From Flavobacteriales bacterium (GTDB lineage Bacteria > Bacteroidota > Bacteroidia > Flavobacteriales_D > Sanyastnellaceae): DNA of 38,346 nucleotides. Shown here piece by piece: positions 21,993-28,116 of this stretch (position 1 is its first letter; each line of letters starts with the position of its first letter). The stretch spans positions 1 through 38,346 of the forward strand of contig JAQWQB010000017.1 in NCBI GenBank assembly GCA_029245065.1, read 5' to 3'. Below the pieces are notes generated by a model. That model did not search any database, had not been told where the DNA came from, and saw nothing but the letters and a program-made list of their open reading frames with translations. A program made the position numbers and the translations under genes.

Positions 21993-22700
21993 ATGAATGA
22001 TGATGTTTTTGGCCGTGCGTTCTCTGCCTTCCTAAATGGAGAGAACTGTGCCCCCATCACTGTGAAGATTGATGACGAACTCCAAGACCCACTTCCGGTG
22101 GAATATTTCTTTCGGTCTGTGAACGATATGCCTGATTTAGAAAGAATAGCGCTCGATCTAGCCGAAGGAAAAACGTTAGACGTAGGCGCCGCAGCCGGTT
22201 GCCATAGCCTCGTACTTCAAGATAGAATTCACACCGTGGCACTCGAAATCTCCCAAAAAGCATGCGATGTCATGCAACATCGTGGAGTAAACAACATTAT
22301 TTGCAAAGACTTTTTTGATTACCAAGCTGACCGTTTTGACACCATCTTATTCCTAATGAACGGGTTAGGTATAGGGAAATCACCAAAAGGAACTGTTGAA
22401 TTGCTAAAACACGCCAAAAGTTTATTAACACCGGATGGGTTTATTTTAGGTGATAGCTCTGACATCTCTTATTTCAAAAATGACGAAATAAAAAAGGGAG
22501 GTGAAATCACCTCCCTTGAACAAGAATATTTTGGCACCGTTGAATTCAATCTTCATTGGCGCGATTTTCATTCAAATTTCCAGTGGATTTATCCTGACCC
22601 TGAATTGATTGAAAAATGCGCTGTAGAAGCGGGACTTACAATGTCCCTTGTTGCAGAAGGTCCTCATTACGACTACCTTCTTCGTTTTGATCAACGATAA
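21993..22700 (+). CDS. Class I SAM-dependent methyltransferase
   Basis: A 235-residue cytosolic enzyme. Motif I 'LDVGAAAGCHSLVLQ' (about residues 57-71) is the SAM-binding glycine loop, followed by an acidic residue after strand 2 ('VALEIS'), 'IICKDFFDY' (motif II/III region) and 'FDTILFLMNGLGIG' (motif IV). The substrate is not evident. The C-terminal 'FQWIYPDPELIEKCAVEAGL' is common in small-molecule methyltransferases of this fold. A perfect 11-bp inverted repeat lies inside the gene at 22494-22517. Its last 10 bases overlap the convergent sigma-factor gene. Confidence 0.82.
   Translation: MNDDVFGRAFSAFLNGENCAPITVKIDDELQDPLPVEYFFRSVNDMPDLERIALDLAEGKTLDVGAAAGCHSLVLQDRIHTVALEISQKACDVMQHRGVNNIICKDFFDYQADRFDTILFLMNGLGIGKSPKGTVELLKHAKSLLTPDGFILGDSSDISYFKNDEIKKGGEITSLEQEYFGTVEFNLHWRDFHSNFQWIYPDPELIEKCAVEAGLTMSLVAEGPHYDYLLRFDQR
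22494..22517. repeat. Perfect 11-bp inverted repeat inside the methyltransferase gene
   Basis: AAGGGAGGTGA, two A, then its exact reverse complement. It has terminator-like stem strength but no T-tract directly after it on the plus strand; on the minus strand it is followed by TTTTATTTCG. It encodes the 'IKKGGEITSLEQ' stretch. Confidence 0.6.
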
Positions 22701-23194
22701 ACTTCCAATTTTGCAGCTAGCTTCTTTCTTGCATGAAAGATTCTACTTTTTACTGTTCCCATTGGAATCCCTAATGTATCAGCTATTTCATCGTAATGGT
22801 AGCCTTCAACAAACATGGTAAATGGCACTTTAAAGTCCTTACTAAGGTTTCCGATTGCAGAACGAATTTCCTTCTCATTGATTTGTGTGGTCACAGAGTC
22901 GAAACTGTAATCCTGTGATGCGTCAATAAAGTAGCTATTGTCGGTGCTGTCTGTAATGGTGTTCTGAAATTTCTTTCTCTTGTAATTATTGATAAAGATA
23001 TTTCTCATGATGGTAAACAACCATCCTTTGATGTTTGTACCTTCCTTGAAATTGTTTTTGTAGCGAAGCGCTTTCACAAATGTGTCTTGGATAAGGTCAT
23101 TTGCATCTTCACTATCCTTTGTAAAGCTGAACGCGAATCCCCTTAGAAATTCGGTATTGCTCGTAAGCAATTGATTAAATTCGATTGATGACAT
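22691..23194 (-). CDS. ECF-type RNA polymerase sigma factor (candidate light/B12-controlled)
   Basis: A 167-residue sigma-70-family extracytoplasmic-function factor. Region 2 is visible as 'DANDLIQDTFVKALRYKNNF' (about 32-51) with 'IKGWLFTIMRNIFINNYKRKK', and region 4 as 'YHYDEIADTLGIPMGTVKSRIFHARKKL' (in pieces, about 131-158) with the helix-turn-helix. No anti-sigma gene is adjacent. The frame stays open to 23272, but the added residues would be encoded by the operator-like repeats, and ECF proteins usually start just before region 2, so I start at ATG 23194. The MerR/B12-domain regulator gene lies upstream on the same strand, and the leader carries two matching inverted repeats, suggesting that regulator controls this gene. 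Confidence 0.9.
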   Translation of the reverse strand: MSSIEFNQLLTSNTEFLRGFAFSFTKDSEDANDLIQDTFVKALRYKNNFKEGTNIKGWLFTIMRNIFINNYKRKKFQNTITDSTDNSYFIDASQDYSFDSVTTQINEKEIRSAIGNLSKDFKVPFTMFVEGYHYDEIADTLGIPMGTVKSRIFHARKKLAAKLEVYR

Positions 23195-23201
23195 GTTATT
23201 C

Positions 23202-23286
23202 TTGTTTAACGGTTCAATGCAAATATTAAACAAAATTCTCTTCGTTCCACATTTTTGTTTAACTATTTTCAAACAGGCTTAAACAA
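23202..23286 (-). promoter_or_regulatory. Two identical-geometry inverted repeats in the sigma-factor leader (putative MerR/CarH operators)
   Basis: Four copies of the octamer TTGTTTAA or its complement occur: 23202-23209 (plus), 23226-23233 (minus), 23255-23262 (plus), 23279-23286 (minus). They form two inverted repeats TTGTTTAA-N16-TTAAACAA with the same 16-base centre length, starting 53 bp apart (about five helical turns). The near one ends 7 bases before the sigma ATG. I did not find the octamer anywhere else in the window by eye. MerR-family regulators bind such dyads, so operators for the neighbouring B12-domain regulator are the natural reading. Confidence 0.65.
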
Positions 23287-23325
23287 AAAATGGATTCTCA
23301 ACCTGATCGGAAGAAGAATCCATTT
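23281..23325 (-). terminator. Intrinsic terminator between the MerR-like and sigma genes
   Basis: Read leftward, an 11-bp perfect stem AAATGGATTCT / AGAATCCATTT with a 16-base loop is followed by TTTTTTG. The U-tract runs straight into the distal TTGTTTAA operator half-site. It ends the regulator transcript 24 bases past its stop. Confidence 0.8.
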
Positions 23326-25668: not shown

Positions 25669-28116
25669 ATGAACATCACTATGGCATTCGAAGATCAATT
25701 TTTAGAATTATCCAATATACAAGATCATGACTTCATCCCACTCATCTCTCCAGAAGATGAAGAAGCGATGAACGAGGAGAAATCTCCTGAAATACTTCCT
25801 ATCCTCCCTCTGAGAAACACCGTACTTTTTCCTGGGGTAGTGATACCTATTACTGTAGGACGTGACCGCTCGATTCGATTAATCAATGACGCGCACAAAT
25901 CAGACAAGATTATTGGTGTCGTTTCGCAATCTGATGGTGAAATTGAAGAACCTACAGCTGCAGACTTAAACAAAGTCGGAACGGTGGCAACCATCGTGAA
26001 AATGCTTAAGATGCCTGATGGTAGTACAACGGTTATCATTCAAGGAAAGAAGCGTTTTGAATGGGTCGAAATGATCGAAGAACAACCCGTTATGAAAGCG
26101 CGCATCCGCGAATTCAACGAACGGGAAAGTAAAGCAACTGAGAACGAAGGGCATGCATTGCAGGACAGTCTTAAAGAACTGGCTCTAAAGATCATTCAGA
26201 AATCACCCAACATCCCTTCGGAAGCCGGCTTCGCCATTAAAAACATTGAAAGTCTTTCATTTCTGGTAAACTTCATTTCTTCCAACATGAACATTGTTGT
26301 GGAGGAAAAACAACGACTACTCGAAATCACCGACCTGAAAGAACGTGCTGAAGAAGCGTTGAAGTTAATGACACATGAACTTCAGATGCTTGACTTGAAA
26401 AACGACATTCAATCGAAGGTAAAAACAGATATTGACAAGCAACAACGTGAGTACTTTCTGAACCAGCAATTGAAGCAAATTCAAGAAGAGTTAGGTTCAA
26501 ACCCTTCAAAAGACGACATTGAACAAAAGCGCAAGAAAGCGAAGGGGAAAGTATGGAGTGATGAAGTGCAAGAAACCTTCTCCAAAGAGCTAAAGAAGTT
26601 GGAACGCATGAATCCACAAAGCGCAGAATACTCTGTTCAAACAAACTATGTTGACCTCCTACTTGATCTCCCATGGGGGAATTACAGCGATGATAATTTC
26701 GATCTGAAGCACGCCCAAGAAGTACTCGACAGAGACCACTACGGACTGGAAAAAGTGAAAGAACGTATTATTGAGCACCTAGCCGTTCTTAAGATCAAAG
26801 GGGATATGAAAGCGCCCATTATTTGCCTTTACGGACCTCCGGGAGTTGGTAAGACATCGCTTGGGAAAAGCGTTGCCGAAGCCCTTGGCAGAAAGTACAT
26901 GCGCATGAGTCTTGGTGGTCTTCGTGATGAAGCTGAAATTAGAGGACACCGAAAGACGTACATCGGTGCGATGCCCGGCAGAATTATTCAAAACCTGAAG
27001 AAAGCAGGCACTTCCAATCCACTTTTTGTGTTGGATGAAATAGACAAACTGGCGAGAGATGCACACGGTGATCCTTCTTCAGCCATGTTGGAAGTTCTTG
27101 ACCCAGAGCAAAACAGTACTTTTTATGACAACTATGTCGAAATAGATTACGACTTGAGTAAAGTACTTTTTGTTGCAACCTGTAATAACCTTTCTACCAT
27201 CCAACCAGCCTTGAGAGACCGAATGGAAATCATTGAGGTCACTGGCTATACCGTGGAAGAAAAAGTAGAAATAGCCCTTCGTCACCTTGCTCCTAAGCAC
27301 CTCAAAGAAACGGGGATTGATTCTGAGTTGATTGAAATCGGCGCGGACGTGATTGAACGATTGGTAGTAGAATACACCAATGAAAGTGGAGTAAGAGGCT
27401 TGGACAAACGCATTGGAAAAGTAGTACGTTATCGCGCGAAGCAACTCGCGCTGGAAGAAGCCTATGAAGTTCGCATCAAACCCGAGGATTTAGCGACCAT
27501 ACTTGGACCTAGTCATGAAAAAGATAAGTACCAAGGAAACGATGTAGCCGGTGTGGTTACAGGTTTGGCGTGGACCCCAACTGGTGGCGATATTCTTTTC
27601 ATTGAAACTTCGCTCACCAAAGGAAAGGGAAAACTCACTCTCACAGGTAACCTAGGTGATGTCATGAAGGAATCTGCTGTGTTGGCACTGGAATACCTCA
27701 AAGCGCACTCGGATCACCTAGGCATTGAACAAGAGGTTTTCGACAAATGGAACGTACACATTCACGTACCTCAAGGGGCTATTCCAAAAGACGGACCTTC
27801 CGCCGGAATTACAATTCTAACTGCTCTTGCGTCAGCGTTCACACAAAAGAAAATCAAGAAGTACTTGGCCATGACTGGCGAAATAACGCTGCGCGGCAGC
27901 GTGTTACCAGTTGGTGGCATTAAAGAGAAAATTCTTGCTGCCAAAAGAGCGGGTATCAAGGAGATTATCTTGTCTGAACGCAACCGAAAGGACATCAATG
28001 AAATCAATGAGCGTTACTTGAAAGGACTTACCTTCCATTACGTAACTGAAATGATTGATGTAATCGACAAAGCATTGCTTCAAGAAAAGGTGGTGAATCC
28101 CCTGAAAGTAGCATAA
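25669..28116 (+). CDS. lon: ATP-dependent protease La (Lon)
   Basis: An 815-residue cytosolic AAA+ protease that degrades misfolded and regulatory proteins. The N-terminal substrate-binding domain begins '[19 protein letters not shown]' (about 43-61). The coiled region is around 240-270 with '[18 protein letters not shown]'. The ATPase has Walker A 'GPPGVGKTS' (from residue 389) and Walker B 'LFVLDEIDK'. The protease domain has catalytic Ser711 in 'PKDGPSAGI' and Lys754 in 'GGIKEKIL', with the same 43-residue separation as E. coli Lon. The length is normal. A second ATG at 25681 could be the real start. It is monocistronic, with a terminator directly downstream. Confidence 0.97.

Follow-up and report, generated by a model that had tools for sequence, protein, structure and literature searches.

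The window (the whole analysed stretch, 38,346 nucleotides) carries a MerR-type regulator gene and an ECF sigma factor gene side by side, and two inverted repeats of the form TTGTTTAA-N16-TTAAACAA, referred to below as dyads, are located between them (table 1). A preliminary description had reported these two dyads with 16-base centres and a start-to-start distance of 53 bp, and both were recovered as exact matches. The distance of 7 bases given there between the near dyad and the sigma ATG was also confirmed (23195–23201, with the ATG at 23194 on the minus strand). All four octamers contain TAAACA, matching the operator half-site core TnnACA. The statement that the octamer is absent from the rest of the window was wrong: a fifth TTGTTTAA octamer is present at 25966–25973 on the minus strand, which has no partner and is read as a chance occurrence.

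Table 1. Features of the regulator–sigma intergenic region and its flanking genes (window coordinates)
Feature	Position	Strand	Remarks
ECF sigma factor gene, 167 aa (controlled gene)	22691–23194	-	Sigma70_r2, Sigma70_r4_2; sigma70-ECF
Near operator dyad (putative), TTGTTTAA-N16-TTAAACAA	23202–23233; half-sites 23226–23233 and 23202–23209	.	Exact match; at most three mismatches in 45/45 merR–sigma loci
Predicted -7 element, TAATATTTG	23220–23228	-	Like Bacteroidota sigma-A TAnnTTTG, one base longer; begins within left half-site of near dyad
Predicted -33 element, between the dyads	23248–23250	-	GTG here, TTG in most relatives; ttTGg kept in f1 consensus
Far (promoter-distal) operator dyad (putative), TTGTTTAA-N16-TTAAACAA	23255–23286; half-sites 23279–23286 and 23255–23262	.	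Exact match; dyad kept in f1 consensus
Terminator-like merR hairpin	23288–23325	-	RNA fold -16.6 kcal/mol, z = -4.96; T-run extends into far dyad
merR-type CarH/LitR-like regulator gene, 296 aa	23349–24239	-	wHTH, four-helix B12-binding domain, Rossmann domain; W140-x9-E150-H151, E187-x-H189

The regulator contains an N-terminal MerR winged helix-turn-helix (PF13411, 3.4e-15), followed by a C-terminal four-helix bundle (PF02607) and a Rossmann cobalamin domain. Its AlphaFold model (pLDDT 87) matches CarH; the best Foldseek matches were 5c8e and 5c8d, the CarH-DNA and dark-state structures (E-value = 7e-14 for 5c8e). The sequence also matches Thermus CarH/LitR, with an aligned identity of approximately 22% to Thermus CarH, and it scores 94.8 bits against the CarH equivalog NCBIfam NF052513, far under the 400-bit cut-off. 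The W-x9-EH motif forms the cap over the Ado group of CarH (PMC8156234); it is present in every homolog of family f1 and in nearly all other homologs examined. The second signature, E/DxHxxG, is kept in part, as E187-I-H189, while its final glycine is replaced by serine in most f1 proteins and is still glycine in many other families. This motif carries the lower axial histidine of B12. Judged by these two largely retained signature motifs, the predicted protein belongs with CarH/LitR, and the earlier assignment of the neighboring gene to the B12-type MerR regulators is upheld. A cobalamin adenosyltransferase gene was found in the same genome, and thus AdoCbl could be made there from salvaged or synthesised cobalamin.

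The hairpin downstream of merR probably ends the merR transcript, and the sigma gene therefore probably needs its own promoter. A promoter scan with an E. coli-type sigma70 model is uninformative for Bacteroidota. The f1 consensus reads, in order, far dyad, ttTGg at -33, and TTTAATcTTTG; the last element is kept in 27 f1 loci, and its TA forms part of the left half-site of the near dyad. Exact TAACTTTG was also observed at the -7 position in many dyads of other genomes. Considering that the Bacteroidota -7 box spans -12 to -5 (PMC9723704), the predicted start site lies near 23215.

To examine conservation, we used 150 genomes of the order, 124 of which have a detectable regulator; the merR–sigma pair is present at 45 non-redundant loci. 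At all 45, a dyad with no more than three mismatches precedes the sigma ATG (21 exact, 18 with one mismatch), in agreement with the expectation that the site is conserved before orthologous sigma genes. Dyads with zero or one mismatch occur at 39/45 loci versus 0/2070 shuffles. The centre length of 16 bases is nearly fixed across loci and the centre sequence is variable. At some loci that have no sigma gene (L067, L074, L076, L082, and L086), the dyad is located directly before crtI. Outside the order, dyads were detected at merR–sigma–crtI or merR loci of Pontibacter, Adhaeribacter, Echinicola, Spirosoma, Flexithrix, and Chitinophaga, Cytophagales being among these named genomes. The locus scan revealed no dyad near merR in several genomes carrying merR. 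At L016, L017, L047, and L048, mostly from genus g12, the half-sites of the near dyad are shifted towards TTGTTCAA ... TTGAACA, and hence dyad symmetry is largely kept while the letters change.

Chance-scattered dyads are ruled out at several levels. Dinucleotide shuffling (100 shuffles) gave an expectation of zero exact dyads in the window, and the entire 3.19-Mb genome contains just the two copies described above, its remaining matches with up to two mismatches being at control level. Together with locus conservation, an order-wide count gave the same answer: 158 exact dyads in the 150 genomes versus 3 for a reversed-pattern control. Exact dyads were found in 81 of the 124 genomes with the regulator (43 lack an exact N16 dyad) versus 3 of the 26 without it (Fisher's exact test, P-value = 3.8e-7); two of these three genomes are at most 83% complete. 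In several genomes merR and dyads are far apart.

The genes most commonly following exact dyads are those for ECF sigma factors (some unlinked to merR), crtI, rhodopsin, fasciclin, folE, pterin synthase (PTPS), merR itself (L243, L248, and L251), and photolyase-linked genes. Others include dxs and the genes for HMG-CoA reductase, glutathione peroxidase (GPx), DUF2805, photolyase-related proteins, and TonB-type receptors; 5 of approximately 74 retrieved sites lack a recognised target class. The preliminary description had named dyads upstream of crt, photolyase, or sigma genes as support; in relatives, dyads precede crtI, rhodopsin, folE, photolyase-linked, and sigma genes. That the same sites recur before light-related genes across many related Bacteroidota suggests a light-response circuit of wide distribution. 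Based on conservation, co-occurrence with the regulator, the targets, and the CarH homology of the neighboring protein, the dyads are very probably operators of the adjacent CarH/LitR-type regulator, as originally proposed.

Distances between dyads, taken over all loci, are 33–35, 41–44, 50–55, or 64 bp with none between, apart from three wide exceptions at 111–133 bp. They follow a period of approximately 10.3–10.5 bp (Rayleigh test, P-value = 2.7e-6 for 25 clusters, or 0.0015 without the 52–54 bp class, with some shared ancestry among clusters in both cases). Such spacings place neighboring dyads on one DNA face. The original estimate of about five helical turns is strengthened, because pairs in other genomes are 3, 4, 5, or 6 turns apart. 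Direct repeats of 11 bp are nearly absent: across the 45 loci, a distance of 11 was observed once and 22 never, and 53 was seen 46 times. These counts rule out CarH-like 11-bp direct repeats hidden in the dyad centres. A tentative model, which we rate at somewhat under even chances, is that a single CarH-type tetramer would bind two inverted pairs, 3, 4, 5, or 6 whole turns apart, through all four of its DNA-binding domains and would wrap or loop the promoter DNA. Such binding would be unlike that of known CarH, which sits head-to-tail on direct repeats, and would belong to a Bacteroidota-wide B12 light regulon in which one switch might serve a sigma cascade as well as carotenoids, rhodopsin, and the cofactor genes of photolyase.

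We then searched the window's genome for other targets. The fasciclin gene is preceded by a weaker dyad, ATGTTTAA-N17-TTAAACAA (one mismatch; control = 0), and the rhodopsin gene by another, TTGTTAAA-N15-TTAAACAA (control = 0). The gene after rhodopsin resembles blh, which encodes the retinal-forming enzyme. A further N15 match (G000:C103:4938) lies within a coding frame and was taken as chance. The crt operon is unlinked, and the 14.6-kb contig that carries it (L127) contains no octamer, which rules out the dyad as its direct operator in this genome; crt must therefore be controlled indirectly, with the sigma factor as the probable intermediary. This operon carries TGAACAA-N16-GTT, and TGAACA[AT]-N15/16-GTT was found before crtI in 12 of 18 f1 loci (0.008 expected per 160-bp region). 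TGAACAA-N15-GTT is also present 135 bp upstream of the photolyase gene, which is divergent from the fasciclin gene; in the region between them (G000:C37; L293 2273–2730), the N17 dyad is on the fasciclin side and the TGAACAA-N15-GTT on the photolyase side. The motif resembles an ECF-type promoter and is probably a candidate recognition site of the sigma factor. A genome-wide search with TTGAACAA-N16-GTTT gave 51 matches versus 44 for the control, showing no enrichment; as the motif is too little distinctive for such a search, the sigma step is one that we infer.

Taken together, these features suggest a mechanism. In the dark, the regulator with AdoCbl bound would sit on both dyads along the same DNA face, covering the -7 element and bracketing the -33 region of the predicted sigma-A promoter, with the ECF sigma gene kept off. 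Light would break the Co–C bond, the regulator oligomer would dissociate, and sigma factor would be produced. The sigma factor would then activate the unlinked carotenoid operon and the photolyase gene via the TGAACAA-N15/16-GTT promoters, while the weaker single dyads would place the rhodopsin and fasciclin genes under direct control of the regulator. The predicted sign is repression, since the -7 element and the predicted start site overlap with the near dyad. We consider the full reading, an AdoCbl-dependent dark repressor on both dyads with a sigma cascade to carotenoid and photolyase genes, quite likely. Regarding its parts, dark repression with AdoCbl, for which we infer protein binding, the repressive sign, and dependence on B12 and light, appears likely, and it is fairly likely that the sigma factor turns on crt and photolyase genes by recognizing the putative promoters.

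With the same regulator and sites, light might instead turn the regulator into an activator of the sigma gene, or the regulator might respond to B12 status or oxidative stress rather than to light. Streptomyces LitR has been reported to activate litS in light (PMC12705666), so the sign of control could differ, and the altered glycine at the end of the B12 motif in family f1 would also fit a different behavior. However, the position of the near dyad over the -7 element and the predicted start fits repression. A signal other than light is opposed by the light-related nature of the targets and by retention of the Ado-capping W-x9-EH motif in all f1 and nearly all other homologs examined. On balance we regard these alternatives as unlikely.

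It is quite improbable that another regulator binds the dyads, or that they belong to an autoregulated ECF sigma promoter, and that merR is a mere neighbor. The three genomes with exact dyads and no detected merR, and those in which the two are widely separated, agree with such a view; on the other hand, dyads track the presence of merR, precede merR itself, and stand before crtI beside merR at loci that have no sigma gene. In addition, the half-site TTAAACA includes the CarH core TnnACA (PMC9304148), and the ECF-like motif before crtI differs from the dyad.

Two further ideas are very improbable, namely that the dyads work at the RNA level, as a terminator or other hairpin, or that they are AT-rich repeats arisen by chance. 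Such inverted repeats could pair as RNA, but the fold of the dyad stretch is only marginally better than that of shuffles (z = -1.9). The predicted promoter is downstream of the far dyad, and a strong hairpin is already present at the end of merR. The centre length is nearly constant while its sequence varies, and chance is refuted by the reversed-pattern comparison.

The AdoCbl-dependent repressor reading can be compared with known systems. CarH/LitR photoreceptor repressors of Thermus, Bacillus megaterium, Myxococcus, and Cystobacter have the same domain order and fold, and share with the present system W-x9-EH, the axial histidine, the TnnACA half-site core, an operator over a sigma-A promoter (predicted here), and carotenoid targets. 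The CarH operators described so far consist of 11-bp direct repeats in tandem (PMC8156234), whereas here inverted half-site pairs with 16-base centres occur in one to two phased copies, and the putative regulon extends to rhodopsin, pterin, and other genes. Since CarH-type operator design is called plastic between species (PMC9304148), we did not treat the missing direct repeats as defining. In Streptomyces LitR–LitS, a B12-type MerR gene likewise lies beside an ECF sigma gene, and carotenoid genes come later in the cascade, the Streptomyces sigma factor transcribing crtE (PMC12705666). The arrangement here is of this type, as the regulator gene adjoins the ECF sigma gene and the sites, assigned by conservation, are in the sigma promoter; the phylum and promoter class are different, the operators are not shared as far as described, and the -7 overlap suggests repression here versus the activation in light reported for LitR. 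Class II LitR of Pseudomonas (PplR1/PmlR2) has two operator copies around one promoter, one at the -35 region and the other past the start site, and folE and photolyase genes are among its light-inducible targets, similar to the target set described above (PMC9758184). It differs in its site, TGTACA-N12-TGTACA. Its protein is missing the second B12 domain, and the response to it comes from a LOV protein. The Myxococcus CarA operator is a region of approximately 55 bp that two dimers cover and that in some species contains an inverted repeat (PMC8156234; PMC9304148), but CarA lacks W-x9-EH, is B12-independent, and has another half-site spacing. On sequence grounds, we describe the present system as CarH/LitR-like with a new operator design. 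No description of the dyad code was found in the open-licence papers searched, which gave nothing relevant on the octamer in connection with MerR or on CarH in connection with rhodopsin of flavobacteria.

Bacteroidota are a major group of rhodopsin-bearing surface-water bacteria. For one light-pigmented Chryseobacterium, a study detected none of the known regulator genes of the car or lit type and proposed an unknown regulator (PMC7064467). An operator code that finds targets genome after genome makes the light induction of carotenoid and related genes in Bacteroidota a directly testable question. It would also connect rhodopsin expression with a B12 photoreceptor, and may give a phylum poor in genetic tools a ready light switch whose sites are defined.

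Several additional sites were observed among the relatives. Fasciclin proteins are repeated dyad targets across families. At L245, L246, and L250, two dyads 35 bp apart lie between the PTPS (pterin) gene and a divergent PnuC-like gene. Dyads between divergent DUF429 and SOUL-type genes (L237, L239, and L253) suggest a likely light-response context for both of these families. In family f13 (L179 1447–1532 and L180 1446–1532), an rpoD-like primary sigma gene, a target that is unexpected for a light regulon, is preceded at a distance of approximately 160–230 bp by double dyads 54–55 bp apart.
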